This document shows positions 1-24,550 of a stretch of DNA of 64,000 nt, piece by piece. The position numbers and the translations under genes are program-made. The stretch covers positions 62,001-126,000 of the forward strand of contig NZ_CP090978.1 of assembly GCF_021513275.1 (NCBI RefSeq). The letters run 5' to 3'. The stretch is from Paenibacillus hexagrammi. Lineage in GTDB: Bacteria; Bacillota; Bacilli; Paenibacillales; NBRC-103111. The notes below the pieces were generated by a model. That model did not search any database and was not told the origin of the DNA. It saw only the letters and a program-made list of their open reading frames with translations. Each line of letters opens with the position of its first letter. The first letter of the stretch is position 1.

Positions 1-2
1 TT

Positions 3-6695: not shown

Positions 6696-6775
6696 AGAAG
6701 ACTCCTTCATCGCTGGGTAAGTAGAACTGAGAATGGAATGTCATTTGATATGCCTACGGTTTGAATCGAAAGTAA

Positions 6776-6840
6776 CCATATTAGGCGAGTTGCAATATGG
6801 CTAATAATTTTGGCATAACAGCAGTTCCGTATAAGGCAAT
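6776..6840 (+). promoter_or_regulatory. Hairpin plus shared motif upstream of the nuclease gene
   Basis: An inverted repeat (CCATATT at 6776-6782, AATATGG at 6794-6800) is followed by TTTGGCATAACAG at 6809-6821 and, a few bases on, ATAAGG. The same 13-mer, preceded by a similar hairpin and followed by ATAAGG, recurs at 9559-9571 before the CHAT gene. It lies 94 bases before the start codon. It could be an operator, leader RNA or promoter-linked element; which one cannot be told from sequence. Confidence 0.5.
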
Positions 6841-6915
6841 AAACTTAGAATTCAGATTCGGAAAATAGTATTAATTATCAGAACTGTTCTAGGCTCTATT
6901 TAATGGAGGTAATCG

Positions 6916-9192
6916 ATGACTATAGACTACGATATTCTAAAAAAATCATTAGCTGATGGGGATGCTACAACGGCAGCAGGTATCATTTATGAGGTATATC
7001 TCCAACATAGCCATAATGTGATGAAACCGATACTGTTAAGTGATTGTCTACCCGAGCCACTCCAAAGAGATTTTGATAAAAAAAATAAAGCGCTTAAGAC
7101 ATTCATTTCCGCATGTGGACTTGTGCGACAAAAGATAGATCAAAACGGTAGAGATAATATAGACTTCTCGATTCAGCATATGAGCACTATAAAAACCATT
7201 TTAGAAATTTATAAACACAATAAGAGTAATACAACAGAACTGGAGGATACGGAACTATTCATAATTCCTATTCCAACAATTATTCATATGCTATGTGTTT
7301 TTTTAGAAAATCAACAAAGACTTGCACTAATTGAGCATGAAGCGAGTATAAAAGGCTCTAAGCATATTGATCTTTTTTCACGAAATGTCGCTGACATTGG
7401 TAGCAATAATGGGAAAATATCAATGGAGTCTAATCTTGAAGCAGGTATCGAAATGTTTAATACACTTTGTTCCTATTTATTTTATAAAGGAAAAAAGGTT
7501 CTAGACAAAGATTTAGAAGTTGCTAATGATGTGTCCCCATATGATATTCCAAACATAGAAAAAATGAGCTTACTTGCTCTACATCGAGGAATGCTGAACC
7601 ACCTGTGGGAGTTGGTGAAATATAGAGAGTGGGAATACTCCATGCAGCGTAATACGGAAGATGAAGAGTATATGTATTACGAACCGATGGACGAAGAATA
7701 TGTAAAACTTGAATCAGCGGCAATGATCAGGTACACATATAAGGATCAACTGGATATTGTAAAAAAAGAAGTTCTCTATAATAGCCTGATACATGACCTG
7801 ATTCCTTTGGAAAGTGATCTTGCACAATCCATTGATCTCAACGATCCCCAATCTTTATTTCGTTTGGAAACTGCAAAGTTAATGAAATTGGTTCAACTTT
7901 ATCAGAAGATAAACAATGGCGCTGTTAAATCTTTAGAGTTTATTGATGGTGACTTTTGGTCTCAAAAAACTATGGGAATAAATAAAAATATAAGTTTTGA
8001 TAATTACTTTTTGTTTATTTCCTATCTACAAGCGCTTGGGTCCGTATATAGTGAAAAATCTCACGAGAAGTTTGATGATTATAACCGCGGGGGTTATAGA
8101 CATCTCGCCCCGAGAATAGAAAAAGAATTAGTTGTTTCGAACTTCAGGGAGATATTTGGTGTAGAGCATGAAGTCGCAAATGAATTACTCAATATGCTAA
8201 CTTTTCAGCCTAAGGCAAATAAAGATGATTTTTCAGATGTATTTTCGCAACCATTAGTTTACATGGGGAAAAAGGAAATAATCCTTGTTCCTGCTCTAAT
8301 CAAACAGTTGAACATACCTCGAATGATTGAACAACAATTCGGTATTTGGAATATAGATGATGCCTATAAAGGAAAAAAATTTGAACGCTATATTAATATG
8401 GCGCTTTCATTTAATTCGAGTTTGAACGTAAATGTTGGTGGGTTGAAAATAGATGATGCTTTCGATGGAAGATCGGCAGAATTTGATTTCATTGCGACTT
8501 TTGGAGAAGAGATCCTGCTAATCGAGATGAAATGTCTCCGCAGGCCCTATTCACCTAAAGAAATCTTTCAAAGAGAGCATGAAGTTAATTACGGTGTTGA
8601 GCAGGTAAATAGGCGAGCATTAGTTTTACAAAAGGATTGGAATAAAATTAGAGAAGTCGCTACGATCGATTTACCAGTTCATCCTCCTGACCCAACTAAG
8701 ATTATTAAGGTCGTCTGTTTGAATATCTTTAATTTTACGGCGAAAGAGAAGGACGATGTAATTATTACAGATGTCTCTTCGCTTACTAAATACTTTGTAA
8801 ACCCTCTTGTGGAACAATTTGAGGTTGGTGAAACAAGAAAAAAAGTAGGTGAGTACTCCTTATGGGAAAAGGAATACCCAACTCCATTGGAATTCAAAGA
8901 ATTCCTCCAAAAACCTCATACCATTGCAGATATATATGATAGTTTAGAACCTGTTTCCAGATCATTAATGTTAATTGATAGTACAAATCAACCACTTGGG
9001 TTTCTTGATTTTTCTCTCACCAGTAACCCGACAGATCTTGCGAACAAAAGGTTTAAATCTCTGAAACAAAAATTAGCCATAAAAGAGAATACTGCAAGGA
9101 TAAGGTCAAATAAAGATAATCGAAAAAAGAAATTAAAGCAGCAAAGACAATCTAGAAAAATAAACAAAAAAAATAACCTTGCTCTAGGGTGA
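6916..9192 (+). CDS. Protein with C-terminal PD-(D/E)XK nuclease-like domain
   Basis: This is a 758-residue soluble protein. Residues about 1-450 are helical and unrecognised. Residues about 490-580 carry a restriction-endonuclease-like core: FERY, then EFDFIA (Asp near 524), then LIEMK (Glu537-x-Lys539), then a Gln in GVEQVNR. This is the E...D...ExK...Q arrangement of PD-(D/E)XK nucleases. The C-terminal 30 residues are strongly basic and may bind nucleic acid. A GGAGG at 6903-6907 sets the start. It lies 220 bases after the giant NTPase gene on the same strand and is probably a partner of it. Nuclease activity is inferred from motif order; the substrate is unknown. Confidence 0.7.
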   Translation: MTIDYDILKKSLADGDATTAAGIIYEVYLQHSHNVMKPILLSDCLPEPLQRDFDKKNKALKTFISACGLVRQKIDQNGRDNIDFSIQHMSTIKTILEIYKHNKSNTTELEDTELFIIPIPTIIHMLCVFLENQQRLALIEHEASIKGSKHIDLFSRNVADIGSNNGKISMESNLEAGIEMFNTLCSYLFYKGKKVLDKDLEVANDVSPYDIPNIEKMSLLALHRGMLNHLWELVKYREWEYSMQRNTEDEEYMYYEPMDEEYVKLESAAMIRYTYKDQLDIVKKEVLYNSLIHDLIPLESDLAQSIDLNDPQSLFRLETAKLMKLVQLYQKINNGAVKSLEFIDGDFWSQKTMGINKNISFDNYFLFISYLQALGSVYSEKSHEKFDDYNRGGYRHLAPRIEKELVVSNFREIFGVEHEVANELLNMLTFQPKANKDDFSDVFSQPLVYMGKKEIILVPALIKQLNIPRMIEQQFGIWNIDDAYKGKKFERYINMALSFNSSLNVNVGGLKIDDAFDGRSAEFDFIATFGEEILLIEMKCLRRPYSPKEIFQREHEVNYGVEQVNRRALVLQKDWNKIREVATIDLPVHPPDPTKIIKVVCLNIFNFTAKEKDDVIITDVSSLTKYFVNPLVEQFEVGETRKKVGEYSLWEKEYPTPLEFKEFLQKPHTIADIYDSLEPVSRSLMLIDSTNQPLGFLDFSLTSNPTDLANKRFKSLKQKLAIKENTARIRSNKDNRKKKLKQQRQSRKINKKNNLALG

Positions 9193-9256
9193 CTACTTCA
9201 AAAGCTACTTTCTTTAGGACATAAAATGAAGGAATTATATAGTTGTTGAATCTTTA

Positions 9257-9433
9257 AAGTACCGGAAGATCCTCGTGTTTCGCATGCCAGACGAGATACG
9301 AATCCGACAATTTACTCGCCACTTGAGCAAAGAGGGGAAGCGTGTGTTGACCAGTCTCGGTTTGAATGAATCGATTTATCTCGGCTAATTGAATCAACTC
9401 TGTTCCAGCGGTGGTTTTACCCTTGAACCATCA
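9257..9433 (-). pseudogene. Short coding remnant between nuclease and CHAT genes
   Basis: On the minus strand this stretch reads as about 57 protein-like codons ending in KHEDLPVL and a TAA stop. Two stops lie just upstream in frame, and there is no start or ribosome binding site. It looks like the C-terminal piece of a decayed gene whose family I do not recognise. The rest of the 441-base gap (9193-9633) holds a run of eight C and eight A residues near 9460-9471 and the shared regulatory motif near 9559. Confidence 0.3.
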
Positions 9434-9533
9434 CTACATCCGTTAACGACTTGTTGCCCCCCCAAAAAAAACGTTCGCTACCACGTGCCGGAGGTGCGGA
9501 ATGGGAGTGAGAAGTATTGGCGTATAAGTATCC

Positions 9534-9585
9534 CCAAATACATAATGTGTATTGGAAATTTGGCATAACAGTAGGTTATAAGGAT
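9534..9585 (+). promoter_or_regulatory. Second copy of hairpin plus shared motif, upstream of the CHAT gene
   Basis: CCAAATACA (9534-9542) pairs with TGTATTGG (9548-9555) apart from one bulge. Three bases later comes TTTGGCATAACAG (9559-9571), then ATAAGG. The 13-mer is identical to the copy at 6809-6821. The hairpin arms differ in sequence while the structure is kept, which suggests a functional hairpin. It lies 62 bases before the CHAT-gene ATG. Confidence 0.5.
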
Positions 9586-9633
9586 TTGACGAAGAACTAA
9601 GGAAAACCAAAATATTATTATGGAGCGAGTTGC

Positions 9634-11562
9634 ATGAATGAGCCAACGGTTGATGAGCAAGTTTTTCAAAATAAGGTGACTATCATACTTAACGATATAG
9701 GTCCAGATGCGATCAAAGGAATAGCCGGCTATCTTTTAGATCAAGAAAAGAAGCTGTTGGTTGTCGATTACTATGGAGGCAAGAAGGTATCTACCAATCC
9801 TTTAGTTGAAATTCTAAATTTGAAGTCTGTGTCAGTGAATGACCTCTTTGTTTCATTAAAAGATTATTCTGAGTATGACTATCTCTTAATTAATGGGACG
9901 GAAAGGTTAATTAGAACTTTTAATGGTGATGGATTGTTTGTTAGAAAAATTGTTGATCAACTTGTTCGAGTGTTTAAACAAAATCAACTTAACTGGGAAT
10001 GGTTGCCTGAGTTTGTAAAGAGACTTCATGAAGAGCTGGATGAAAGAAGAGCGGTTATATGTCTTTATGTTGAGGGAGACGGCAGTGAGTCGATTTACAA
10101 ATTACTTGAAGATGACGATGATGTTGATATTGCACAGATTACTCTTGCTAATAAAGAAAACGATGTAGTACTTGAGATTCAGAAAACAATGCTTGAAGAT
10201 ATACAAAATAAAAACTTAGAAGATATGATTAAGACAATTGAAAGCCACGAGGATCGTCTGCCCAAAAGGATATTAAATATATTTAAAGCAATAACTTATA
10301 TGAAGCATGGTTTGAAAACAAATGCAATTTCATCATTTGAAATGGAAAGGGAATCTTTACTGTCAAATGAAAAAATAATGTTAGCTGATTTGTACCTGGC
10401 AAATAATGAGCCAGAAAAATCCCTTGAAGTTGGACGACAACTCATTTTACAAGACCCGTTCGTTTATGGGGCAACAAGAGTAACTCTTCGATCGGTTTTG
10501 TCTATCGATTCAGTTGCTGATGATGAAATCCGCCATTGGCTTGAGGTATGTGGTGAAATAGATAAAGAAAGTCCTGAGATATTGGATTTAATCTCCAATG
10601 GGTACAATAGAATTAGGAACTATCAAAAAGCTGCAAAGATTAGAAGGGAAATCTTTGCTCTTAATAGTAATCCTACAGAACTTCTACTAGCTCGTTTCTT
10701 GGATCTGCAAGATGAACCTCCGACTGATTTGAGTGTTGTTTCTAGTTATGTATTAGCACTGCTACAGGAATTCCCCGAGCTTGAGGAAGAGGCGCACTAC
10801 AGATTAGGTTTGTTTTTTATGAATAATTATGGTAGCCAGTACAAAGCATTTGAGCACTGGTCGGAAGTATCCACCAGTATTAGCAGCAGATTTGCATATG
10901 AAGCTGCAAAAGGTAGGCTCGAGTTACTCGAAGATAATCTCGTAGCTTGTAAGGTTTTGAGAATCAAATTAAAAGAAGATGACGTACGGGAAGATAAACG
11001 ATTGCTGGATAGGAAGGTCTTGGAACTATTAAAGAGTATGGAGGTTCTTTCAACAAACCCAAAAGGTTATTTGTCATGGGGAAATTATATTGATAAATCG
11101 TACACCAAAAATACTTGGAAACAGGGATTATTAAAGGCACTAATAAATGAAATTGATGACTGGAAGTTAGTTGATAAAGATTTGATAAATCACTCATATT
11201 TGGACAGGAATGATAAAGAAGCCGATCCAGATATGGGTGTGAATCCTGCCACATCATTGCGCTTGCTAAGAAAGCTTAAAGGTATGGAGTTAGCACAGGG
11301 CAGAGATGACAAAGAACTTCTTGAGACTGTTAGTGGGGGTTTGATTTGCTCAGAAATGTTTGGCGATACAGCAAATCAGGTCTGGATAAGATACGAAACA
11401 GCTTTAATTTTGGGGGCAATTGGAAAGGATCAAGAAGCACTAAATCACTCATTAACTTTGTTTGAAATCTCGAGAGCGATTCCGAACCACTCAATCATAT
11501 CGCAAGAATGCTTGCCTTCTTTGCTTGGGGAAATACCCAATTCAGAATCGGTAACAGTATAG
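9634..11562 (+). CDS. TPR-rich N-terminal part of a CHAT protease protein (frame 1)
   Basis: This 642-residue frame has an N-terminal alpha/beta region (about 1-170) followed by helical pairs typical of TPR-like repeats (for example residues 190-290 and 320-440). GGAGCGAG about 8 bases upstream supports the ATG. The last 17 or so residues (after HSIISQ) do not look like the rest. The natural continuation, MLAFFAWGNTQFRIGN, is in the next frame starting at 11508. I therefore read this and the following frame as one gene of about 1,300 residues broken by a one-base shift near 11495-11510. The alternative is two overlapping genes, but I see no ribosome binding site before 11508. The helical repeats probably form a sensing scaffold for the downstream protease. 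Confidence 0.65.
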   Translation: MNEPTVDEQVFQNKVTIILNDIGPDAIKGIAGYLLDQEKKLLVVDYYGGKKVSTNPLVEILNLKSVSVNDLFVSLKDYSEYDYLLINGTERLIRTFNGDGLFVRKIVDQLVRVFKQNQLNWEWLPEFVKRLHEELDERRAVICLYVEGDGSESIYKLLEDDDDVDIAQITLANKENDVVLEIQKTMLEDIQNKNLEDMIKTIESHEDRLPKRILNIFKAITYMKHGLKTNAISSFEMERESLLSNEKIMLADLYLANNEPEKSLEVGRQLILQDPFVYGATRVTLRSVLSIDSVADDEIRHWLEVCGEIDKESPEILDLISNGYNRIRNYQKAAKIRREIFALNSNPTELLLARFLDLQDEPPTDLSVVSSYVLALLQEFPELEEEAHYRLGLFFMNNYGSQYKAFEHWSEVSTSISSRFAYEAAKGRLELLEDNLVACKVLRIKLKEDDVREDKRLLDRKVLELLKSMEVLSTNPKGYLSWGNYIDKSYTKNTWKQGLLKALINEIDDWKLVDKDLINHSYLDRNDKEADPDMGVNPATSLRLLRKLKGMELAQGRDDKELLETVSGGLICSEMFGDTANQVWIRYETALILGAIGKDQEALNHSLTLFEISRAIPNHSIISQECLPSLLGEIPNSESVTV

Positions 11563-13538
11563 AAGGGGTTTTCTCTATCATTGTAGGTATGAGATTGGCA
11601 AGGAGAACCGGGGAAATAGGGGCATTCGTAGAAGACGGAATGAACATGATTTATCGCATTATTTTGGATGAGGGAGTTGCTGTATCTCCTGCAAAGATTC
11701 AAGAAATACGTGATTTATTCGACAAATTTTCTGATAGGATTGATTCAAAACATGCTGCGATTCGTTCTGCAGTTTTAATCAAAGATTTTGAAAAGGTTTA
11801 CGAAATACTCAATCCAGTAATAAATAGCTTGCCAATGAAAGTAGATACTGAATGGGCAGTTGATCTTTCAAACTATATTATGGCATGCATGGAGACAAAT
11901 CGCCCCGCAGAGGCATTTGGACTAATTACTACTTACTCTGAAATGGTGATTCCATATTTGTATGCTAGGAGGGACTTGCTCCCTCGTTGCTTGCAGTCGT
12001 GGTCACAAATATTAGTTCGCGTTAAGGCGGGAGAATCATTAGATAAGTTTCGGCTTGCTCGTCGTCTATTAGAAGAGGCAGTCCAGGTTATGGATACTAG
12101 GCGAAGCGGTCTGTTTCATAAAGGAGAGCGCGCAAATTTTTCTGATATCCACCGAGGTGTATTACTTGATTATCTCGAAGTACTTGTAATAATAAATAAA
12201 ACAGAAGGATTTTCAGAAGAAGAGAAACAATCAACTCACAGGGAAATAATTAAGGTATTTTCCTTTATTAACCCGAGGTCAGTCCTCGAAACTCGAGTGA
12301 GTGACTCAAGATTGACACCTGAACTGAGGGAGCTGGAGAAAGCCTATAATCGCGTTAATGATGAAATACTATTATTAGAACATTCAAATGAGAAACAAGA
12401 ACTAGTTCGTCAACAAAATGAGCTGCTAGAAGAATTAAAAAAGTCTCATCCCCATTACCGCTCATTATCAAATATTGATGCAAGAATTGAGGAGTTACAC
12501 ACTAAGCTAGATGAACGAAGTGTCTTTGTTCAGTATGCAGTATTAAAGTTCGGGATTATCCTATTAATTGTGAATAACACAAGCTTAAACATAGAATACG
12601 TAATGTTGAATACTATAAAATACAGGGGAATAAATGAACGATTAGGAAACATGCTGCAAGGTGCCGACCTTCACACAGAGAGAGAAGTGGAACTTTGTAA
12701 AAAGATTACACAAGAATTGTCCAAACCGTTAATGCAACCTCTGAATAACTTCTTATCATCTATGAATGTAGAGATATCAGATATAAATTTATATATCTCC
12801 CCTGATCTATCACTACCTTTGTTCTCTATAAGCTTATTAAATGACGAAGGAGAATGGCTGCTGAACAAAGTGAAAGGGGTTAGTAACGTTCTTGATTTAT
12901 CACATGTAGTTGATCCAAGAATCGCGAAGAATCGGGGGACAAAAATTGTAATTGCAACCTTAGGCTCTGCGAATGATAAAGCAATCGGAATAGCGAGGAG
13001 AAAAATAAAAACGTGGGTAACCAATCCACAAATAATACATTTGGAGCTAGCCGGACAAGTGGATGAGATCGATAAGCTTACTTATCTTTGTAGAGTGGAA
13101 CATCCGTCTACTGTTATTGTTATTGGTCATGGGATTTCGGATAGAAATGCAGGGGTGTTGAGCGGCGCAGTTGGTATACAAGGTCACACCCATACAATTT
13201 GGGGAGAGGACTTCGAAAAGTTGGAGGGGTTTACAGATAATCTTGTATTAATATCTTGTAGTGCAGGCTCAAATTATGAGGAACAAATTGAATCAAGCAC
13301 TGGCGTTCTTAACAATATTTTATCATATAATTTTTCTGGTTTAGTGTTGTGCCGATGGGATGTTAATGCTCAAGCAACATTTGAAATACTAGATATCATA
13401 ATCAATGATATTACGAAAAAGGAAGTAGTGGGTATTGCTGATTCCCTAATGAAGAGCCAGCGTGAATTACAGAAAATTGAAAAATGGAAAAGCCCGGTAT
13501 TCTGGGCGGGGCTAGAATACTGGGGCCCACAACCTTAG
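11508..13538 (+). CDS. CHAT-domain caspase-like protease (frame 2 of the split gene)
   Basis: This is a 676-residue frame. Residues 1-260 continue the TPR-like helices, about 265-335 form a coiled coil rich in Glu and Lys, and 340-676 match a CHAT domain (caspase HetF associated with TPRs). The catalytic dyad is visible as His541 in VIVIGHGISD and Cys584 in LVLISCSAG. The end is also typical of the family, with repeated helices and a terminal WAGLEYWG. CHAT proteases cleave protein partners in several bacterial immune systems, such as the TPR-CHAT of type III-E CRISPR. No gasdermin-like substrate is visible next to it. The start shown is only the first ATG in the frame; the real protein probably begins at 9634. 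Confidence 0.8.
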   Translation: MLAFFAWGNTQFRIGNSIEGVFSIIVGMRLARRTGEIGAFVEDGMNMIYRIILDEGVAVSPAKIQEIRDLFDKFSDRIDSKHAAIRSAVLIKDFEKVYEILNPVINSLPMKVDTEWAVDLSNYIMACMETNRPAEAFGLITTYSEMVIPYLYARRDLLPRCLQSWSQILVRVKAGESLDKFRLARRLLEEAVQVMDTRRSGLFHKGERANFSDIHRGVLLDYLEVLVIINKTEGFSEEEKQSTHREIIKVFSFINPRSVLETRVSDSRLTPELRELEKAYNRVNDEILLLEHSNEKQELVRQQNELLEELKKSHPHYRSLSNIDARIEELHTKLDERSVFVQYAVLKFGIILLIVNNTSLNIEYVMLNTIKYRGINERLGNMLQGADLHTEREVELCKKITQELSKPLMQPLNNFLSSMNVEISDINLYISPDLSLPLFSISLLNDEGEWLLNKVKGVSNVLDLSHVVDPRIAKNRGTKIVIATLGSANDKAIGIARRKIKTWVTNPQIIHLELAGQVDEIDKLTYLCRVEHPSTVIVIGHGISDRNAGVLSGAVGIQGHTHTIWGEDFEKLEGFTDNLVLISCSAGSNYEEQIESSTGVLNNILSYNFSGLVLCRWDVNAQATFEILDIIINDITKKEVVGIADSLMKSQRELQKIEKWKSPVFWAGLEYWGPQP

Positions 13539-13604
13539 ATCTCTTATTCTTAGGAGAATGAAAAAACCTGTTCTAAAGTAGGGCTTACGCCTCGATCATC
13601 GAAT

Positions 13605-13732
13605 GGTTTCCCACTTTCTTTACATGGTAATATCTAGTGGTTCCAGACTCTTTATTTTTCATGTTTATCACGTGCCGCGGCAAACCCAATAAAATCAACA
13701 AAATGGGTTCCAGACTTTTTTATCACCTGACA
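13605..13732 (+). repeat. End of a Tn7-like transposon (element 1, right side)
   Basis: Three inverted-orientation copies of a GGTTCCAGACT-type repeat lie at about 13605 (degenerate), 13639 and 13706. They lead to a terminus CCTGACA at 13726-13732, which reads TGTCAGG from outside. The layout matches the dispersed-repeat end of the two elements further right. The partner end is outside the window, so the defence-like genes to the left may be its cargo. GCAAA (13733-13737) separates it from element 2. Confidence 0.55.
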
Positions 13733-13825
13733 GCAAATGTTCAAAGAAAATAATGTTGGGAACTGAAAAATAAAATCGGGAACCAGAAAATAAAGATGGG
13801 AACTAAAAATTAAAGTCGGGAACTG

Positions 13826-13860
13826 AAAGAGGTGCCAATTAACAGGGCACCTCTTTTTTA
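13826..13860 (+). terminator. Rho-independent terminator
   Basis: The arms AAAGAGGTGCC and GGGCACCTCTTT pair around a short loop and are followed by a run of T on the plus strand. It lies just inside element 2 and would stop rightward transcription coming from the CHAT gene. Confidence 0.7.
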
Positions 13861-13940
13861 ATCTCTTTATATAATGTGCTCGTTGGGAAGTCCTGTGTTT
13901 TTTATATACTTGTCAAGAGAAAATAAAGACAATGTAAACT

Positions 13941-13972
13941 GAAAAAAGACCGCCATTGTGGCAGCCTTTTTC
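13941..13972 (-). terminator. Terminator after the ABC permease gene
   Basis: Read leftward, CTGCC-ACAAT-GGCGG forms a short stem followed by TCTTTTTTC. It sits about 70 bases beyond the permease stop codon at 14041. Confidence 0.5.
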
Positions 13973-14040
13973 ATCCTTGATTAGATTTTTTTTAAGACAT
14001 CGGGAAGGCGTTACTTTCTGCTCTCTGTCAGTTATTTTTA

Positions 14041-15912
14041 TTATCGGTATATAAAAGCTTTTAAATTCTTTATATAACCGAACCGGATCATAATAAAGTA
14101 CAACAGTTGTAGGAGGAAGAATCCAATAATCGTTAGAACTCCTGATGGAACTACGTTAATATAACCGCCTTCCCGCTGTAATATATGCAAGGCAAATCCT
14201 GTATCAACAACGGCAAGTACAAATGGCAGAAAGAAAAGGATTGCCATTTGTATGGATGCACTTTTCGCCATTTCTGCTTCGCTTAGACCTATTTTTGCGA
14301 GCGATTTGTATTTTTCCCGTTCCTCATATAAATCCGTGAATAGACGGAAGTATAAGAAACTACCAGAGGCAATGAAAAAGACAATCGCTATAAACAGACC
14401 AATAAATAAACTTAAACTTGGCATTTGAACAGTTATAAAATAATGAATCGCTTTTGACACATAGTTTGCATCTGGATTGTAAGTTTTTCCAACGATATGA
14501 CTTTCAATATTTCTACTGATATCGAGGCTTTCTTTCCAATTCTCGAAATTAAAACCAATGAAGGAAACTTGTTTAAAATGTTGGTGTAATTGTTTAAAAG
14601 TATTCTCGTTTACAATCAGTACGTCTGAGGAAGAAAGGATCGGTTTTTCATAAGAATGTACCCGCAAATCAATCGAAACTTGACTTTGTTGGTCGAACAG
14701 CTGAAGTTCGGGATGAACCTTTTGGGTATTTATTTGTCCAAAGAGAATCCCTTCTTGGTCTGCAAGTGTCACGGTCACCCGCTCTAAAATTTGTTTAGGC
14801 AAGCTTATCTCAGAAATAACAATGAGAATAGAACTGTGATCCCCTTGTTTGTATTTAGATTGAATCGCTTCAAATTTGTCTTCAGTGTAATCAATGTTTT
14901 GCGAAGCAAACTGCTTTTCGATGAATTGGACTTGTTGTTGTTCCTCTTGATTAATAGAATAGGAGAGATACTCCATTTCGTAAAGCGATTCTTGTTGAGA
15001 AAACGATGATTTAACCGTTGCAAGCGTGCCGATAGCGGTAAAAGTAACAGCTAAAACAATACTTACGATAAAAAACAAGCGTGCATTATCTCTGACACGA
15101 TACATTAAGTCGGAAACCCAAAGGAGATTCATTCCTTTTCGGTAAAAGGTTTTACTTCGTTTCAATAGCTTAAGCATCCATACACTCAATTGACTGTAAA
15201 AGAAGTATGTCCCGAATACTGTGGATATCAAAATAACGACAAGATTCTTTGTATCAATTTCCGCAGTCAATGCCATTCCAAATCCCGTCACTAAGAATAA
15301 AGTGCCAAGAACTGTGAAAAACAGAGATGGTTTAGGTTCTTTTTTGGGCTTTTGCGTTCCCTTTAACAAAGCAAGCGTGTTTTTTTTATAAATAGTAAAT
15401 AAAGTGAATTGTGAGATAATCATAAACAAAAGAAAAAATACGACTGCTGTAACAATAATTGCTTTCCACGGAACATATAGCGGTAGCGGCTCCATTTCCA
15501 CGATATACGTTCCTGCTGTAAAAAACATTTTGGCGAGGACTGTGCCTCCAACGATCCCAGTGAGAATCGAGGCAATCCCGATAATCATATTTTCTAACGT
15601 GATTAACCAGCGAAATTTCATAGGTGATATACCTAAAATGGTCAAAATCCCGAATTCCTTGCTTCGAGTTTTTAAAAATGCACTAACGGAGTACAAAATG
15701 AATAAAATTGAAAAAATAAATATAATCCATTCAGCAAATACCATTCCCTTTTTGGCAAAGGTATTTATATAACCATTTTTTAAAGCGGGATGGAAAATAA
15801 ACATGGCGAACATGTAGAATATCATGACTGCAAATGAACTGCTTAAATAAAACGCTAAGTATGACCGCAGATTCCGAAGCACATTTTTATAAGCGAACTG
15901 AGGAAAGGTCAT
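14041..15912 (-). CDS. BceB-type ABC transporter permease (FtsX-like)
   Basis: This 623-residue membrane protein has ten predicted membrane segments. Four or more are N-terminal, and a large extracytoplasmic domain (about residues 310-510) lies between segments 7 and 8. That domain and the length are typical of Bce/Yts/Psd-type peptide-resistance permeases, which sense and detoxify cell-wall-targeting peptides such as bacitracin or lantibiotics. Its start overlaps the end of the ATPase gene, so the two are translated together. With the kinase and regulator it makes a complete BceAB-RS module, in which the permease itself serves as the sensor. The exact peptide cannot be read from sequence. 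It is cargo of element 2. Confidence 0.85.
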   Translation of the reverse strand: MTFPQFAYKNVLRNLRSYLAFYLSSSFAVMIFYMFAMFIFHPALKNGYINTFAKKGMVFAEWIIFIFSILFILYSVSAFLKTRSKEFGILTILGISPMKFRWLITLENMIIGIASILTGIVGGTVLAKMFFTAGTYIVEMEPLPLYVPWKAIIVTAVVFFLLFMIISQFTLFTIYKKNTLALLKGTQKPKKEPKPSLFFTVLGTLFLVTGFGMALTAEIDTKNLVVILISTVFGTYFFYSQLSVWMLKLLKRSKTFYRKGMNLLWVSDLMYRVRDNARLFFIVSIVLAVTFTAIGTLATVKSSFSQQESLYEMEYLSYSINQEEQQQVQFIEKQFASQNIDYTEDKFEAIQSKYKQGDHSSILIVISEISLPKQILERVTVTLADQEGILFGQINTQKVHPELQLFDQQSQVSIDLRVHSYEKPILSSSDVLIVNENTFKQLHQHFKQVSFIGFNFENWKESLDISRNIESHIVGKTYNPDANYVSKAIHYFITVQMPSLSLFIGLFIAIVFFIASGSFLYFRLFTDLYEEREKYKSLAKIGLSEAEMAKSASIQMAILFFLPFVLAVVDTGFALHILQREGGYINVVPSGVLTIIGFFLLQLLYFIMIRFGYIKNLKAFIYR

Positions 15913-16660
15913 TCATATCTCCTCCTAACATCGATAAGGCATCCATGATTTGCTGAAAAAATACCTGCTGATTAGAGCCGCGATGAATTTCATTGTATAG
16001 TTCTCCGTCCTTAATGAATACGATACGATGGCAATAGCTTGCTGCAAAGGGATCGTGCGTAACCATCAACATAGTGGTTTGGTCGATTTCATTAATGGCT
16101 TGCATGGCTCCCATTACATCCTTCGATGACTTGGAATCTAAGTTTCCTGTCGGCTCATCAGCTAAAAGAAGCGAGGGGCGATGAATAATAGCTCTAGCGA
16201 TTGCCGTCCTTTGTTTTTGCCCGCCAGAAACTTCGTAAGTTCGTTTGTTTAATATCGATTGGATCCCTAATTTTTCAGCAATGCTTCGCAAGTTTTCATC
16301 AATGGTTGCTGATTTAATATTCTCTAAGGTAAGCGGCAAGATAATGTTTTCTTCCAACGTTAACGTGTCTAATAAATTAAAATCTTGAAATACAAATCCA
16401 AGTTCTCTTCTGCGGAATTGAGCCAGCCTTCCTTTCTTTAATTGATGAGGGTTTTGCTCATTTATAAGGATTTCCCCGGATGTCGGTTTATCGATGGTGG
16501 ATATTAAATTCAATAACGTCGTTTTTCCAGATCCAGATGGACCCATGATTCCAATAAATTCACCTTTTTCAACATTAAAGGAAATATTGGTCAAGGCTTG
16601 AAAAGGTGCCTTTCCATCATATTTTTTATTGATATGCTTTACCCGCAATAGATCTGCCAT
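15887..16660 (-). CDS. BceA-type ABC transporter ATPase
   Basis: The protein has Walker A GPSGSGKT near residue 42, a signature YEVSGGQKQR near 145, Walker B LLLADEP near 165 and a switch His in MVTHD. This belongs to the MacB/LolD-like ATPase group that pairs with FtsX-type permeases. ATG at 16660 (MADLL) is chosen because GGAGGG lies just upstream; an upstream in-frame GTG or TTG would overlap that site. It overlaps the permease gene by about 26 bases. It powers the resistance transporter. Transcription probably starts in the gap to the kinase gene, where an operator-like palindrome lies at 16743. Confidence 0.9.
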   Translation of the reverse strand: MADLLRVKHINKKYDGKAPFQALTNISFNVEKGEFIGIMGPSGSGKTTLLNLISTIDKPTSGEILINEQNPHQLKKGRLAQFRRRELGFVFQDFNLLDTLTLEENIILPLTLENIKSATIDENLRSIAEKLGIQSILNKRTYEVSGGQKQRTAIARAIIHRPSLLLADEPTGNLDSKSSKDVMGAMQAINEIDQTTMLMVTHDPFAASYCHRIVFIKDGELYNEIHRGSNQQVFFQQIMDALSMLGGDMNDLSSVRL

Positions 16661-16742
16661 TAGATTGCCCTCCTTCAATTGTTAACAACTTGATTGTATA
16701 AGAAAATGAATTAGAGAAGAATTGAATTACCTTAAACCACAA

Positions 16743-16756
16743 TTACATTTTTGTAA
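16743..16756. promoter_or_regulatory. Candidate BceR-type operator
   Basis: A perfect TTACA-TTTT-TGTAA palindrome lies 83 bases upstream of the ATPase start. Regulators of the BceR group bind inverted repeats of this general type (ACA-N4-TGT core). A second imperfect palindrome, CTTAC...GTAAG, lies at about 16785-16800. Binding by the neighbouring regulator is inference. Confidence 0.5.
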
Positions 16757-16804
16757 GATTGAGAAAAAACCTTTTAATTTATAACTTACACTTTAGTAAG
16801 ATAA

Positions 16805-16845
16805 TAAAAAAAGCGTTGCCTTATTTATACTTTAGGCAATGCTTT
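16805..16845 (-). terminator. Terminator after the kinase gene
   Basis: On the minus strand AAAGCATTGCC pairs with GGCAACGCTTT and is followed by a T run. It sits directly downstream of the kinase stop codon (16852) and separates the regulator-kinase transcript from the transporter operon. Confidence 0.75.
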
Positions 16846-16851
16846 CTAATA

Positions 16852-17862
16852 TTACCCATTTGAATGTTCGATATTCGCAAGGGTAAATTTCGTAAAATAT
16901 ATTTTGAAGATTGTGCCGCTTCCAGCATTCGACTCCAAGGTTATTTCATGTTGAAGTTTATTCATTATTTCTTTCACTAAATAAAGTCCTAACCCAGTTG
17001 ACTCATGATTTAACCTACCATTAACGCCTGTGAAATACTTTTCGAACACTCTTTTTAGATCCTCCGGCGGAATTCCAATTCCGAAATCTTGTATCTCTAA
17101 CACAATGTGCTCTTCGAAGCTTTCAATTTTGAAATTCAATTTACTTTTCTGATTTGAATATTTCAGTGCATTCGAGATAATTTGACCGATCGCAAACTGG
17201 AGCCATTTTTTATCGCTAAAAACAAATATCCCTTGTTCCGGAAACAGTTTTAGAGGAGTAATTTGGTATTGAATAAACAATCTTTTGTTTTCTTTGATGA
17301 TTTCGCTAATAAAATTTTGGAGCAGGACTTTTTCAATTGTATAGTCTTTCTCGAACATCGACAGCCTCGATGAGTAAAGAACGGTTTGTAATCCAACTTC
17401 TAATCGATACAGCTCTTTTCGAATGTTTTGAAATATGAGGTCGTCATTTTCCTGAATCATTAAATGAATAACGCTTAAAGGGGTTTTCATTTGATGAACC
17501 CATTGATTGATAAACGTTACTCTTTCATTTAAATCAGTTTGAACTTGTTGAAATTTATTTATGAGCATTTGCGTCTGCACGGTTTGCTTTTCGCTAAGGG
17601 CTTCTGCGAATTGACTATTTCCAAAATGAGGTACGGAAAACTCTTCATTCGAATTGTTTTGTAACAGCCAATCATATATTTTCTTATCTTGTATCCATCG
17701 ATAAGCAATAAATGAACAGGTTGTTAGGATTTGAATAGAAAAAACATAAAATAAATGATCCAATGATTGAAATCCTAAGAACCAGTAGTACCCAAAAACA
17801 AATATGCCTTGTACAAAAGTAAGAAATATAAGAGATAAATGAGAGTGTACGAACAATTTCAT
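16852..17862 (-). CDS. Intramembrane-sensing histidine kinase, BceS-like
   Basis: The protein is 336 residues from ATG 17862, which has GGAGG seven bases upstream. Two membrane helices lie at about residues 5-50 with almost no loop between them, typical of BceS-type kinases that lack their own sensor and take the signal from the permease. The dimerisation box contains INQWVHQMKTPLS with the phospho-acceptor His. N, G1 (QDFGIGIPP) and G2 (STGLGLYLV) ATP-binding motifs follow. Its ATG overlaps the regulator stop as ATGA, so the two are co-translated. It phosphorylates the regulator encoded at 17859-18560. Confidence 0.88.
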   Translation of the reverse strand: MKLFVHSHLSLIFLTFVQGIFVFGYYWFLGFQSLDHLFYVFSIQILTTCSFIAYRWIQDKKIYDWLLQNNSNEEFSVPHFGNSQFAEALSEKQTVQTQMLINKFQQVQTDLNERVTFINQWVHQMKTPLSVIHLMIQENDDLIFQNIRKELYRLEVGLQTVLYSSRLSMFEKDYTIEKVLLQNFISEIIKENKRLFIQYQITPLKLFPEQGIFVFSDKKWLQFAIGQIISNALKYSNQKSKLNFKIESFEEHIVLEIQDFGIGIPPEDLKRVFEKYFTGVNGRLNHESTGLGLYLVKEIMNKLQHEITLESNAGSGTIFKIYFTKFTLANIEHSNG

Positions 17863-18560
17863 TCGATATCCTCCCACGTTTGCTTCATTTTATAACCTGC
17901 ACCTCGAATCGTTTCAATAGCATCTTGAATTCCTAGATTAGAAAGCCGTTTTCTAACCCTGGTAATATATACATTTAATGTATTTTCATCAACATATAGA
18001 TCTGTATCCCACATTTTTTCCATCAAACGATCTCGGCTTGTAATTTTATCCCCACGCTCCAAAAGAACCTCAAGCAAATAAGCTTCTTTCTTTGAAACCT
18101 CGATGGTCTGCGAACGAAATTTAAGCTCCATTCTTTCGGGTAAAAATATTAATCCATGAAAATTAATGGTCCTTTCACCCTGGATAGCAGCATATTCTCC
18201 GTATGCTCTTCGTAAATGACTCTTTACTTTTGCGATAACCATATCATAGGAAAAAGGCTTGGTTATATAGTCATCCCCACCGTTTTCAAGAGCCATGATT
18301 TGGTCCATCGTTCCTTCGCGTGCGGATATAAATATAATTGGGCACGTGGAATGTTTACGAATTTTCCTGCACCAATAATAGCCGTCATAGGAAGGCAAAT
18401 TAATATCTAATAAGACCAAATGAGGGTCTGTTTTTAAAAACAATTCTAAAATATTATCGAAGTGTTGAGGTGCGATAACAGTATAACCGAATTTTTGCAT
18501 ATGCTCTGTTAAGAGTTTTTGTAGATCTTGATTATCTTCTACAATCATAATACTTTCCAT
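17859..18560 (-). CDS. OmpR-family response regulator, BceR-like
   Basis: An N-terminal receiver domain (acidic residues in IVEDNQ, phospho-acceptor Asp in LLDINLP near residue 52, conserved Lys in YITKPFS) is followed by a winged-helix DNA-binding domain (ITRVRKRL, GAGYKM). ATG 18560 is preferred over the adjacent TTG because AAGGGG lies eight bases upstream. It is probably the activator of the ABC operon through the TTACA-N4-TGTAA site. A promoter should lie in the AT-rich 18564-18700 stretch, but I cannot point to convincing -35 and -10 boxes. Positions 18564-18930 otherwise hold no supported gene. Confidence 0.88.
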   Translation of the reverse strand: MESIMIVEDNQDLQKLLTEHMQKFGYTVIAPQHFDNILELFLKTDPHLVLLDINLPSYDGYYWCRKIRKHSTCPIIFISAREGTMDQIMALENGGDDYITKPFSYDMVIAKVKSHLRRAYGEYAAIQGERTINFHGLIFLPERMELKFRSQTIEVSKKEAYLLEVLLERGDKITSRDRLMEKMWDTDLYVDENTLNVYITRVRKRLSNLGIQDAIETIRGAGYKMKQTWEDIE

Positions 18561-18933
18561 CAATTTTACCCCTTTTTACTAATCACTGTAATATTTTGTG
18601 ATTTACAAATTAATTATATACTCCTTGTAATGCTTGCCGAAGAACAGAGCAATATAGGACTAAATGCTTGCTCATTTCTTTAAGACTATTATAACGCTCT
18701 GATTCTATTGTTGTTAAAATTAAACTTTTGTTCGCTATTTTTAATTTATGTTGAATATCTTATCTTTAATTCTCCAATGATGACTAATGAGGTAATCCCA
18801 TTGGAAAATGATGGACTTTGTGTCCCGGTTGGAAGTTTTGTGAATTCGTGGGGGAACATGTAGCATTAAATAAAACTATGAAGCGGCTTTTGAATCTCGA
18901 TAGATTTTTACTAGAATTTTTACTTTTATATGT

Positions 18934-19131
18934 TTATCTATGACGATTTTTCCCCAATCTAAGTGATTTTAATCTAGCCATTATTTCTTCCATTTCACCC
19001 TCTTTTAGAATTGCAATTACATATTGTTGATGAAAACATTTCGAACAATGGCGATCAAATGATTGGTCATCATAAATGATGTCTATAATCCATTCATGTT
19101 TGCATTTTTGTTGTTGGTTAGTATCCGACAT
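18934..19131 (-). CDS. Small zinc-ribbon-like protein
   Basis: This is a 65-residue protein from ATG 19131, with a G-rich ribosome binding site about nine bases upstream. CKHEW near the N-terminus and HCSKC near residue 30 form a CxH...HCxxC pattern that could hold one zinc ion. The C-terminus is basic (LGKNRHR). It lies alone between the regulator gene and the right end of element 2. I do not recognise a family. It could be a nucleic-acid-binding accessory gene of the mobile element. Confidence 0.5.
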   Translation of the reverse strand: MSDTNQQQKCKHEWIIDIIYDDQSFDRHCSKCFHQQYVIAILKEGEMEEIMARLKSLRLGKNRHR

Positions 19132-19400
19132 GACAATCACCCCCTTTTTTAAAGTTTTCCGGAAACCACCTTATTTCCCTCTAAAGTTGATATTAGTCGT
19201 TTCAGTTTCCAACTTTATTTTTCAATAAAAAAAGAACCGGTGAAAACCAGTTCCCAACTTATTATTAAAACGTACTTATATTTGCGATTTAAAAACATAG
19301 GTCACACTTGAAGATCTAGTTCCCAACTTTATTTTTCACTAACATGCAAATAAGCAAATATTAATGTCTGGTGGTAACAAAATCGTGAACCAGTAAGTGC

Positions 19401-19440
19401 AAGGTTGTTCTGAGCTGAGGCTCAGAGCAACCTTTGTTTT
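19401..19440 (+). terminator. Strong hairpin terminator
   Basis: AAGGTTGTTCTGAGC (19401-19415) pairs with GCTCAGAGCAACCTT (19420-19434) with one mismatch, followed by TGTTTTTT. No gene upstream in this window clearly uses it; it may belong to the disrupted IS110 element or to a lost neighbour. Confidence 0.6.
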
Positions 19441-19507
19441 TTACTTAGACAATCTTCCCTCTTAACTATAGCCAAAGAAACCGGAATGCTATCTGGAGCT
19501 GATTTTA

Positions 19508-19684: not shown

Positions 19685-19874
19685 TTTATTACTCCCAGAG
19701 TAAATTCGCCGGCAGCTCCTAAAAATTATTGTTGTCCACTCTATCACATGTGCTACGGGAATCAATGTCCCAAACAGCCTAAACATGGTTTAACACATAG
19801 GGGGGTTGTTTTTTGCAAGTGAAAAGTGCCTAGTTTTGCTGCGAAAAATGCCTAGGACACCTGCCAGTTAAAAC

Positions 19875-20600
19875 TTACTGCGGAATTCGCTCCATAGCTT
19901 GTTTGAATCGGAAACTCTCACCACCAAAAGACAGGATATGCGCGTGGTGTACCAGGCGATCAACAAGCGCAGAGGTGAGCTTCGTGTCCCCAAATATCGA
20001 GGTCCATTGACCGAATTCTAAATTGGAGGTCACGATCACGCTCTGCTGTTCATAACAATCGGCAATGACGTTAAACAGTAGCTCCGACCCCGTTTGGCTA
20101 AAAGGGACATAACCTACCTCGTCCAAGATAATTAGATCCATTTTCCTTAGCTTCTCTCGAAAGCGACTCAGCGTGCCTGCTGCGAACTTCTCTTGCAGGA
20201 TCGCCACAAGGTCTGAAGCTCGAGAGAATTGTACCGCATGCCCTCGCCTGCAAGCCTCCACCCCCAGAGCAGTGGCCATATGGGTTTTACCTGTTCCGAC
20301 CGCACCCATCAACAGCAAGTTTTCTCGTCTTTCTAACCATGTCATATCCAACAATATGTCGAGCGTACAACCAGCAGGAAACGTAATATGGTCTTTCACA
20401 TACCCCTCAAAGGTCTTCAAATGGGGGAAGCCTGCCTGTTGGACAAGTTTCCCTAGTTTTGCCCGTCGTCTGCCTTCTCTCTCGGCCAATAACAGCTGTT
20501 CCACTAATTCCTGTGTGCGTTCGTCTTGCTGTTGAACGACATATTCTACCACATGAGCCAGGCGGAGCTGCCGGCATAGTTCTGTCAGATCATTTCTCAC
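19875..20600 (-). CDS. istB: IS21 helper ATPase IstB
   Basis: The protein is 241 residues from a GTG start. It is a DnaA-like AAA+ ATPase with Walker A GAVGTGKT near residue 99 and Walker B LIILDEVGYV near 155, then a sensor stretch VIVTSNLEF. IstB forms clamps on target DNA and stimulates the IstA transposase. Its length and motif spacing are normal for the family. The gene follows istA with a gap of about 33 bases. Confidence 0.93.
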   Translation of the reverse strand: MRNDLTELCRQLRLAHVVEYVVQQQDERTQELVEQLLLAEREGRRRAKLGKLVQQAGFPHLKTFEGYVKDHITFPAGCTLDILLDMTWLERRENLLLMGAVGTGKTHMATALGVEACRRGHAVQFSRASDLVAILQEKFAAGTLSRFREKLRKMDLIILDEVGYVPFSQTGSELLFNVIADCYEQQSVIVTSNLEFGQWTSIFGDTKLTSALVDRLVHHAHILSFGGESFRFKQAMERIPQ

Positions 20601-20633
20601 CTCAGCTCACCCCCATTAGGCGATCATAACGCC

Positions 20634-22079
20634 CTAGAGAATCGCTTCCTGCGTACCAGGCGGAGATAGCGTTTCAACCCATGCTGCTGGAATATCCCGG
20701 TTCATTTGCTTTAATCCAAGCGCAGCTGTTACCTGAGCAATCGTGGCCTCGTTATGTGTCTCCTGCAGCGTTTGTCCAATCTGTGTGATCGGGTAAACAC
20801 CTGACCAATGGGCTAGCGCCTGCAATCGCTCTTTGCGCAACATCAAATCTGTTATGCGAACATACTGTTGAACCGCTTCTGGCAGCATCCGGACGAATTG
20901 CGAATGGTTGACGCTTCGGGGCTTGCGCAGCAGGTTGGTGAATACCTGTACCCATGGAACATCCGCTGTTCTGCCGGTGTACGGTCGTGGTACTTCTCGT
21001 ACTGTCTGCTGTCCTTGTGTCAGGATAACATGCCGATCCCAGAAGGTCTGAATGAGTACTTCACTGCCAGGTGAAACCAAGCCGACTAACGGGAAGGAGG
21101 TGTTCTCAATTCGGATTTCCCCGTACTTGTTGACCACTGCTGCACTCATTCGGTAGGACTCAAAAGTCACTTCAGGCAGCGTTAGCAGATGACGACGGTC
21201 CTCTTCCCATAGACTAGCGATACGCTCTTTCTTGGCGTAGTGTGGACGCTCACGGTCCTGCTGCGCCTGCTCGGCAAAGTAGGCGGCCAACTGCTCATGG
21301 CTTTCATAGATGGGAATAGGTACAGCCCAATTTCGCTTGGCATAGCCACATTTGCTTTCGACATGCCCTTTTTCGTGGCCGCTGTATGGATTACAGAATA
21401 CTGCTTCCATCCGGTAGTGAGCACAGAATCTTTGAAAGCCTTCCGTCAACTGTCGTTCTCCATGTTTTTCGATGTGAACTACTGCAGCGGATAGGTTGTC
21501 GAACCAGACCCGACGAGGAACACCACCCATTTGTGTAAAACACTGCTTCATACCTTCTAGGAAGCATTCCTGGTTTTCTGCTGGTGTAGGGTAGAGGAAT
21601 GCTGCATTGCTTGAAGGAAATGAAACCACCAGCAGTTTGTAGGTAAGCAATTGCTGATCACGACTAACCTGAATCGTGGTGAAGTCGACTTGTGCTTCTC
21701 CTGGTGGATGTTCTAGTCGTTCATAAGATTTCGCACGCTCCAAGACCATTTCATTCTTTCGTCTCTTAACGTAGGCTAATACCGTACGTTGTCCACCCGT
21801 GAATGCATATTCGGCTTGCAATCGATGAAAGATTCTCACCCCAGTGTGTCTCTGCTTGCGAGGGAGTAACTGATCCTCCTCCAGCCACGTATCCACAATT
21901 TCCATAAAAGGCCCCATCACCGGGCTATTGCTTCTTCGTTTATTGATGTTTTCATTCCAATTATCTTTATCTGCATACCGTTTGGCTGTTCTCCAATGAA
22001 TCCCTACTTGTCTTGCAATCTCATTCACCGAGCAGCCTTCTGCTTCACGTAAAAATTTGATATACTCTTGTTGAGGCAT
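20634..22079 (-). CDS. istA: IS21 transposase IstA
   Basis: This is a DDE transposase of about 480 residues. An N-terminal helix-turn-helix (GCSVNEIARQVGIHWRTAKR) binds the ends. The RNase H-like catalytic core has Asp in AQVDFTT, Asp in RVWFDNLSA and Glu in KGHVESK. A C-terminal beta-barrel region follows. ATG 22079 has GAAGGA nine bases upstream; ATG 22088 lies on top of that site. The frame is intact, so the element is potentially active. Confidence 0.93.
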   Translation of the reverse strand: MPQQEYIKFLREAEGCSVNEIARQVGIHWRTAKRYADKDNWNENINKRRSNSPVMGPFMEIVDTWLEEDQLLPRKQRHTGVRIFHRLQAEYAFTGGQRTVLAYVKRRKNEMVLERAKSYERLEHPPGEAQVDFTTIQVSRDQQLLTYKLLVVSFPSSNAAFLYPTPAENQECFLEGMKQCFTQMGGVPRRVWFDNLSAAVVHIEKHGERQLTEGFQRFCAHYRMEAVFCNPYSGHEKGHVESKCGYAKRNWAVPIPIYESHEQLAAYFAEQAQQDRERPHYAKKERIASLWEEDRRHLLTLPEVTFESYRMSAAVVNKYGEIRIENTSFPLVGLVSPGSEVLIQTFWDRHVILTQGQQTVREVPRPYTGRTADVPWVQVFTNLLRKPRSVNHSQFVRMLPEAVQQYVRITDLMLRKERLQALAHWSGVYPITQIGQTLQETHNEATIAQVTAALGLKQMNRDIPAAWVETLSPPGTQEAIL

Positions 22080-22232
22080 TTTCAGCATTCCTTCCAGTCT
22101 CCTTCGTCAGTTCTCGCAAACCTAACGATAGGAGGATAATAGGATGCTGGCAAGTGTCTCTTTTTTTGCATTTTAGCTAGGCACGTTTACGCTGCAATAT
22201 TCGGCACTTTTAGTATGCAATATACAGGGGGT

Positions 22233-22557: not shown

Positions 22558-22797
22558 TGTCCGATGAAAATATAGTTTTAGACTGGAAAATAAACTGTTA
22601 GACTAGGAAAATAAAGTAGTAGACTGAGAAAATAAAGTTTTAGACTGAATAGAGCCATTAAGCTAACTAGCAGAATTCTTCAATAAAGCCTATTGACCTG
22701 TGATAATATTGAGGTATCTAAATTGCCTATGCGAGGTGCAAATTGAAGAAAACTGTCATGGAACCAATCTTCATTTAAGGTTTTGAATCCTCAAATC

Positions 22798-22947
22798 ATG
22801 AATTGTGGTAGATGTGCGAATTGTGGTTGTTGGACAACGGATAAGGAAAAGCATAACGCGATTTTTGGACTAGATAATGGAGCGGTACACAATAATAAAT
22901 TGCATTGTGATGAGTGTTTGCCTGCCGATCATAATTGGGCTATTTAA
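22798..22947 (+). CDS. 49-residue cysteine-rich zinc-finger-like protein
   Basis: This short reading frame starts at ATG 22798 and contains C3-x2-C6, C9-x-C11 and C37-x2-C40, a likely zinc-binding layout (MNCGRCANCGCW ... HCDECLPADHNW). An AAGG about 18 bases upstream is a poor ribosome binding site, so translation is uncertain, but the composition is far from random. It is the first gene of the cassette-like series in element 3 and is followed directly by a palindromic repeat at 22947-22970. I do not recognise the family. Confidence 0.55.
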   Translation: MNCGRCANCGCWTTDKEKHNAIFGLDNGAVHNNKLHCDECLPADHNWAI

Positions 22948-22983
22948 TTGAACTATCTAAATAGGTCAGTCTTTGGAGGTTTC

Positions 22984-23271
22984 ATGAAATTATTGAATTG
23001 GTGTTTCGATGATGACACAGTGGGTCCTTTAGATGAATGGAATTGGGTTGAAGTCACCCTGACTTTTGAAGATGGAAGCAAGCGGTGGAGCATCTTATAC
23101 ACACCAGACAGGCTAAAAAATAATCTTTTCAGATTGAATATCGACCCTCCAGGATTGTTCATCAAACATATGATAATTGTAAGGAGCTATGCTGAAGATG
23201 ATGTTGAACGAACATTACGCTATTTAGAGAGTGAAAATGAGTTGTTTGATGCTTCAAAGCCATTGAACTAA
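22984..23271 (+). CDS. Small hypothetical protein, possible immunity protein
   Basis: The product is 95 residues from ATG 22984, which has GGAGG six bases upstream. It is acidic and rich in Trp and Asp (LNWCFDDDTVGPLDEWNW near the start), soluble, with no signal peptide or membrane segment. Small acidic proteins like this in strings are often immunity proteins for contact-dependent or polymorphic toxins. That is inference from context with the DUF2185-like gene downstream. The stop codon lies inside a 29-bp palindrome (23262-23290). Confidence 0.6.
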   Translation: MKLLNWCFDDDTVGPLDEWNWVEVTLTFEDGSKRWSILYTPDRLKNNLFRLNIDPPGLFIKHMIIVRSYAEDDVERTLRYLESENELFDASKPLN

Positions 23272-23406
23272 CGAGGAACTATAGCTTAATAAAGACATCG
23301 CGATAGCCGGTCATGACGTGTCGTTTTCACGCTAATGGGTAGGATAATGCCAATTATGTCTAGAAATAAATGGATAATATTGATATCTGTGAAAAGAAGG
23401 TCAACG

Positions 23407-23940: not shown

Positions 23941-24075
23941 GCTAAAGAGGAACTTTAGTTCAATCCCTACCTGACGACGGCAGCTGGCACACTAAAGGCT
24001 ACCATTGTCCATTGAAGTAACGGAGAACGATAGCTGAAGGTAGCATGGGATAACTCTATTTACAGGAGAAACAAA

Positions 24076-24441: not shown

Positions 24442-24497
24442 AAATATTGTTTATCTGATCTTAGTGCTTTAAACTATCTGGGACACGTTAGTTTAAC

Positions 24498-24550
24498 GAA
24501 ACAGCGACAGTCTAGGACTTTATTTTCTTGTCCTTGGCCGTCGCTGTTTC
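24498..24550. terminator. Large hairpin overlapping the right end of element 3
   Basis: GAAACAGCGAC (24498-24508) pairs with GTCGCTGTTTC (24540-24550), with a nested AGGAC/GTCC pair inside. A closely related hairpin is found at 63859-63906 and a degenerate one at 28884-28919. It could stop transcription of the cassette genes. Confidence 0.5.

Follow-up and report, generated by a model that had tools for sequence, protein, structure and literature searches.

Two transposon ends of Tn7 type abut in this chromosome: a left-hand terminus stops at 13732, a right-hand terminus opens at 13738, and only GCAAA lies between. The question is how they came to lie so close. The window, by which we mean the whole stretch of 64,000 nucleotides that was analysed, corresponds to G000:C1:62001-126000, where G000 is the genome it comes from; positions prefixed C1 are those of the contig. 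A sequence-only reading had already described the two termini and their spacer, which the letters and the end repeats on both sides confirm, and had offered two explanations: the second element had inserted next to the first, or both had used a hot spot. We find that the shared five bases are an attTn7 target that was reused, and that the two elements, A to the left and B to the right, very probably form a stack of Tn7-like transposons built up in a single attTn7 site by sequential insertion. What can be read directly is the gene content, the ends of A and B with their duplications, how far glmS lies from them, the order of insertion as told by the flanking bases, and the recurrence of the arrangement elsewhere.

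Element A is a complete transposon of 47,173 bp (C1:28560-75732) with tnsA, tnsB, tnsC and two tnsD genes. We set these limits because both ends open with TGTCAG, have AAAAAAGTC in common and are flanked by GCAAA. The ends are of the TGT...ACA kind and carry asymmetric repeat arrays, with three spaced repeats on the left and, starting at C1:28560, four contiguous repeats (a 20-bp tandem array) on the right. It was this array that located the partner end; fuzzy patterns for the A, B and C repeats, run upstream of the window, did not reveal it. An inner right end at C1:29180 was rejected as the end of A because it pairs with C1:39115, with the duplication ATTGC. Pfam recognizes the N and C domains of TnsA, Mu-transpos_C and AAA_22/TniB, and the two target-selector proteins match TnsD at E=1e-70 and 5.8e-49, each with TniQ, so the Tn7-like nature claimed for the element holds. 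A transposase gene (rve, HTH_21; IS3-like) stands between tnsC and the first tnsD. The nearest relatives of its TnsB, at 94-95% identity in a scan of genome contigs, are in Paenibacillus woosongensis, P. validus and P. sp. 32352. A short TnsB-like fragment (C1:46328-46471; 48% identity, 54 bits) lies upstream of tnsA, and similar scraps occur near tnsA in G007, G009, G079 and G095. Beside the Avs3-type gene are three more cargo genes of A (6916-13538; 758, 642 and 676 aa) with no Pfam, PADLOC or NCBIfam match at E 0.001.

The check proposed for A was its other end, outside the window, and there too GCAAA directly precedes the terminus (C1:28555-28559). The terminus at 13732 is likewise backed by the left ends of five related elements (six rows including A, 139 columns, mean column identity 85%; the row for G015 ends one base before the terminus). 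The contrary outcome that had been named, a different duplication at the partner end with no 13732 end in relatives, is therefore absent. Just upstream lies glmS (C1:26706-28535), with 24 nt from its stop to the right end of A, the last five of them GCAAA. A thus has a 5-bp duplication at attTn7 behind glmS, and the hot spot of the earlier reading now has an identity.

Element B has TGT...ACA termini with TnsB-type repeat arrays, its far terminus, AGTTCCCAACTTTATTTTTCACTAACA, ending at 19344, and ten Tns queries gave no tblastn match to a TnsA, TnsB or TnsC of its own within 13738-19344. Its cargo arrangement is one that we take to be Bce-like. The same five bases had been noted at the far side of B; GCAAA is indeed present there, at 19346-19350, one base beyond the terminus, and what follows B exactly is TGCAAA. 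GCAAA therefore occurs at the three relevant places, before the right end of A, in the spacer and one base past the left end of B. The motif is found 197 times in the window versus ~215 expected, and the chance of meeting it at one given place is ~0.0012 (~0.0003 for TGCAAA). The duplication of B is either the 6-bp TGCAAA or GCAAA plus a single additional T, and one stray T would look identical. Tn7 duplicates 5 bp of target, from which a 6-bp duplication departs; it may be a trait of the family of B or a single extra base.

No autonomous partner of B was found when its right end was used as query against 104 family genomes; seven other genomes gave weak partial matches. Eight loci from that search were inspected: seven carry C-type or similar repeats, and the eighth has nothing recognizable. 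The opening bases of the right end of B agree with those of C-type ends, and a C-type TnsABC set is present in G007. In the stretch searched around the best homologue of the cargo (67%, G023), a B-type end was not found. To the right of B lies a right-end remnant, D, for which no left end was recognized. The bases between B and D, 19346-19364, read GCAAATAAGCAAATATTAA and hold two GCAAA motifs eight bases apart, possibly the scar of an earlier event. By eye, a hairpin and a run of T follow the right-end repeats of B (13826-13858), A (C1:28675-28708), D (19398-19441) and several relatives; such a right-end hairpin might substitute for the glmS terminator.

Table 1. Features at the junction, in elements A to E, and at the stacked junctions found among family genomes (window positions unless prefixed C1).
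Feature	Position	Strand	Details
Part of A in the window	1-13732	+	Cargo and left end; right end and tns genes upstream of the window
Avs3-type defence gene, cargo of A	90-6695	+	PADLOC Avs3a E=0, Avs3b 1.3e-55; Pfam NACHT under cut-off
Left end of A	13603-13732	-	Three spaced repeats (near 13605, 13639 and 13706) and terminus CACCTGACA
Terminus of left end of A	13706-13732		GGTTCCAGACTTTTTTATCACCTGACA
Spacer	13733-13737		GCAAA; target duplication of A, and by the proposed order the sequence formerly directly before B when B faced glmS
tns genes of A (tnsA, tnsB, tnsC, two tnsD/tniQ)	C1:47940-57966		Pfam
Element B	13738-19344	+	Tn7-type ends; 5,607 bp
Right-hand terminus of B	from 13738		TGTTCAAAGAAAATAATGTTGGGAACTG; also given as TGTTCAAAG
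Right end of B	13738-13829	+	Terminus and four contiguous 20-bp repeats (~13745-13829) of TTGGGAACTG type
Cargo of B	14041-18563	-	FtsX-like permease, ABC ATPase, sensor kinase, response regulator
Left end of B	19204-19344	-	Three spaced repeats (two inward at 19204 and 19249) and terminus CACTAACA
TGCAAA, right copy of the duplication of B	19345-19350		Its left counterpart flanks A on the side of glmS, at C1:28554-28559
Right-end remnant D	19365-19400	+	TGTCTGGTGGTAACAAAATCGTGAACCAGTAAG; one repeat, resembles the right end of A
Element C	22558-24658		2.1 kb; Tn7-type ends with TAGACTG repeats, exact duplication CACTC, Imm33 gene
Element E, nested in A	C1:29180-39115		Tn7-type ends with GGAAAG repeats, exact duplication ATTGC, OloA-like gene
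Junction, G000			A to B; GCAAA
Junctions, G009 (two successive)			G-type to A, A to E-type; both AAGAT
Junction, G028			F-type to A-family; ACAAC
Junction, G076			A to A-family; TTCAT
Junction, G085			A-family to A-family; GATAA plus one base
Junction, G097			C-type to A-family; ATAGT

The order of insertion can be read from a single base. GCAAA is preceded by T on the glmS side of A, by A between the two elements and by T to the right of B. Only with A as the later arrival does B have TGCAAA on either side, so B is very probably the older element and A the younger, placed between glmS and B. This reverses one option of the sequence-only reading, that the second element inserted next to the first, and parallels in other genomes agree: at the A/E-type junction of G009 and in G097, the last base of the duplicated 5-mer is the T with which the displaced element opens, so that, unless a T has been lost, the displaced element was in place before the 5-mer was duplicated. 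We envision that a TnsD-type protein would bind the end of glmS and direct insertion to a point ~24 nt downstream of the stop codon, where the element would come to lie with its right end toward the gene and the target would be duplicated. As the binding site and the insertion point would survive each insertion, a later element could land in the same place and push the older one outward. B would have inserted first, with the duplication TGCAAA, presumably mobilized by a transposase that acted in trans or has disappeared since; A would then have entered precisely between the gene and B, with GCAAA as its duplication, so that its left end came to stand five bases from the right end of B. That the same GCAAA flanks both A and B follows from successive insertions reusing one attTn7 target.

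To a resolution of five bases, a different history predicts the same pattern, GCAAA-A-GCAAA-B-GCAAA: B came second and entered the distal copy of GCAAA left by A, 47 kb from glmS. The sixth base speaks against it, since the T at 19345 is then unexplained; it agrees with the flank on the side of glmS, TTTGCAAA, and disagrees with the A that now stands left of the spacer. The analogous history at the A/E-type junction of G009 and in G097 would require loss of a T, and a glmS-directed system would hardly pick a site 47 kb away, so we consider this order highly improbable. Less probable still, to the point of being nearly negligible, is a deletion or recombination that fused the ends of two separate insertions. 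The nearby remnant at 19365, a right end with no recognized partner, lends that account something; the exact 5-bp spacing, the common target sequence, the presence of both partner ends for A and for B, and a like geometry in five other genomes all favor sequential insertion instead.

How often attTn7 is filled in this way was viewed across the Paenibacillaceae. A glmS match was present in 92 of the 104 genomes sampled, and the DNA behind it was viewed in 88, namely 30 genus genomes (our own included) and 58 others; G031, G084, G088 and G091 were left out because the contig ended too soon or was taken to do so. A Tn7-type right end, degenerate in some cases, was assigned by eye in 61 of the 88. 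For two genomes the glmS match used was not the top-scoring one (G090, within the 61, and G092, outside them). The right end lies 24-25 nt past the glmS stop in 33 of the 61 and 22-26 nt past it in 43, within a full range of 5-100 nt. Grouping the repeat motifs by hand gave 13 end families, the largest being that of A (25/61).

Six of these 61 genomes hold a total of seven abutting junctions (Table 1), and at every one of them, moving away from glmS, a left end is met first and a right end second, so that more than one element sits head to tail in a single glmS site. The stacks were searched for by the 5-mer that precedes the glmS-nearest end, found again beside a second end, in 1,497,232 bases behind the 61 ends (~80 kb for G009, 97 kb for our own genome, mostly 20-40 kb elsewhere and shorter on short contigs). 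Because the 5-mer was the search key, its presence at these hits is no independent evidence, and the repeats on both sides are what count. The junctions of G000, G009 and G028 were first met through end repeats or end matches, and those of G076, G085 and G097 through the 5-mer. Eleven junction rows with no end repeats alongside were dropped (G095, G096, G078 twice, G090, G014, G024, G009 at 13635, G023, G019 and G006), as were, on the same ground, weaker candidates in G096, G103, G068, G024, G023, G020 and G012 and most rows with CA plus the 5-mer. The left terminus in G028 is without the usual ACA. Single elements framed by two copies of one 5-mer, with no further end immediately beyond them, occur in G022, G004 and G007, the last two having been counted as single elements when the hits were sorted; in G015, counted as a left end with unmatched flank, a single A-type element has flanks out of register (CCTGA and CTGAG).

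Second right ends that do not abut the first element were also seen, in our own genome (E and C), G008, G009 (+820), G028 (near 39.9 kb) and G097 (near 19.8 kb). Some lie ~0.5-0.8 kb inside the resident element in the same orientation, as E does in A and as is the case in G008, G009 and G097. By eye, these inner right ends stand past what seems to be the first gene, a helix-turn-helix-like one, and a duplication is known for E in A only.

Abutting copies had also been taken to suggest diverged, mutually non-immune subfamilies. The divergence is borne out by the end repeats: aligned in register, the seven of A are 68% identical among themselves, the seven of B 79%, and the two sets 61% to each other, and of the 3,432 possible 7:7 partitions of the 14 repeats only two (the split by element and its mirror) separate them this well and none does better. 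Mutual non-immunity through divergence would fit the pair A and B and is not needed to explain it. The general form of the idea, that target immunity keeps elements of one kind apart and so lets none but diverged subfamilies abut, strikes us as possible and on balance doubtful. In its favor, besides the differing repeats of A and B, five of the seven junctions link different end families, and 12 TnsB proteins, assigned to end families by position, share 63-96% identity within the A family and 59% between the two of the C family versus 30-48% between families (A, C, E, G, I and L). Displaced right ends of the A family can moreover be poor in repeats, with one in G076, two in G097 and one in remnant D; counted by eye, the displaced right ends at the seven junctions have 4, 4, 2, 3, 1, 3 and 2. 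Yet two of the seven junctions fall within one family, in G076 and in G085, where the three repeats of the displaced element are nearly identical to those of the inserted one. Nor does the same-family count drop below expectation on shuffling the seven displaced types (2.9, P(<=2)=0.29, 2 being the lowest value that these labels allow); family frequencies predict 1.5 (0.215 x 7). A sample of seven junctions is too small to show avoidance of the same family. Some glmS-nearest ends also have few repeats (none in G020, one in G022 and G038, two in G019), so a low number may reflect age as well as loss of immunity.

Several observations count against the reading as a stack: the lack of tns genes in B, the departure of a 6-bp duplication from the usual 5 bp, the exceptions in G028 and G015, the assignment of right ends in relatives by eye, and the second right ends that do not abut. 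Our own genome has a single TnsB/TniQ set, in A, and another Mu-transpos_C scrap at C1:2460514; tblastn with the ten Tns queries found no tns genes in B, E or C. For element E, a relative with TnsB and TnsD, whose left end matches, is present on G003:C88. Element C as query matches 96 of the 104 family genomes, and among the matches listed many cover end regions only, at scattered places. Three more regions of 1.0-1.2 kb in our own genome (near C1 positions 1512400, 5519300 and 6408100) have inverted C-type repeats at their borders and short ORFs in between, with no clear duplications. A degenerate repeat pattern run genome-wide gave counts (58 and 50) on a par with those of its reversed control (54 and 55). 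Between D and C lies an IS21-type istA/istB element with imperfect inverted ends (19807-22226).

Across the family, 12 of 83 genomes have a TnsB match behind glmS in stretches that may stop short of it, as ~64 kb separates TnsB from glmS on G086:C13. A Mu-transpos_C match is absent genome-wide from 11 of the 30 genus genomes; nine of the 11 have an end assigned behind glmS, although G015, which is among these nine, does match TnsD. In G022, a 9.8-kb element has its two ends, each flanked by TTGGG, and gives no Mu-transpos_C match. All these counts are limited by draft assemblies and by the sensitivity of a single profile. We tentatively propose, while thinking it rather less than an even chance, that attTn7 in Paenibacillaceae could be a shared landing site for ~13 Tn7-type end families, many of them on transposase-free elements. 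Cargo-only elements (B, C and E among them) would then arrive through enzymes acting in trans, while those pushed outward would shed TnsB sites from their right ends, letting immunity fade and the site be refilled. If so, stack junctions whose order is readable from single bases would be a natural series on the loss of Tn7 target immunity in the wild. Tn7-type ends with no transposase nearby also suggest that surveys based on tnsB overlook elements.

Overall, stacking explains how defence and transporter genes can pile up behind an intact glmS, and it makes the order of insertion readable at the level of the base. With seven junctions, two of them within one family, the strictness of natural Tn7 target immunity becomes directly testable.

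Tn7 genomic islands are reportedly the subject of Parks and Peters in 2007, and heteromeric transposase elements are said to be treated by Peters in 2014. Our search, which left most subscription literature outside, found no paper on Tn7-like elements at glmS in Paenibacillus, and among titles on non-autonomous Tn7-like elements none on the present case. Tn7 of Escherichia coli encodes TnsA, TnsB, TnsC and TnsD, inserts behind glmS with its right end toward the gene, and has contiguous repeats on one end and spaced repeats on the other. Element A shares the gene set, the position and orientation, the contiguous and spaced repeats and the 5-bp duplication; unlike Tn7, it has two TnsD/TniQ genes and an IS3-like transposase gene between tnsC and the first tnsD. 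Targeting of glmS by TnsD is described in the accessible part of PMC2918618, and elements inserting within or beside one another are cited in that of PMC8649781. An argument on insertion order at base level was not found in the accessible parts of PMC8649781, PMC11406308, PMC10293859 and PMC2359905. The nearest printed case that we found, in the part of PMC2359905 available, is the island BCEGI-1 of Bacillus cereus ATCC 10987, which directly follows glmS and has two Tn7-like sets, tnsABCD in both, and for which the authors found no conserved attTn7 sequence. The locus described here likewise has more than one Tn7-like element behind glmS; it differs from BCEGI-1, as far as that part of the source goes, in that the outer element, B, lacks tns genes and in that the junction can be placed with single-base precision. 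The arrangement is thus real and, as tandem Tn7-like sets behind glmS, of a kind already in print, and the resolution with which it can be read is unusually good.
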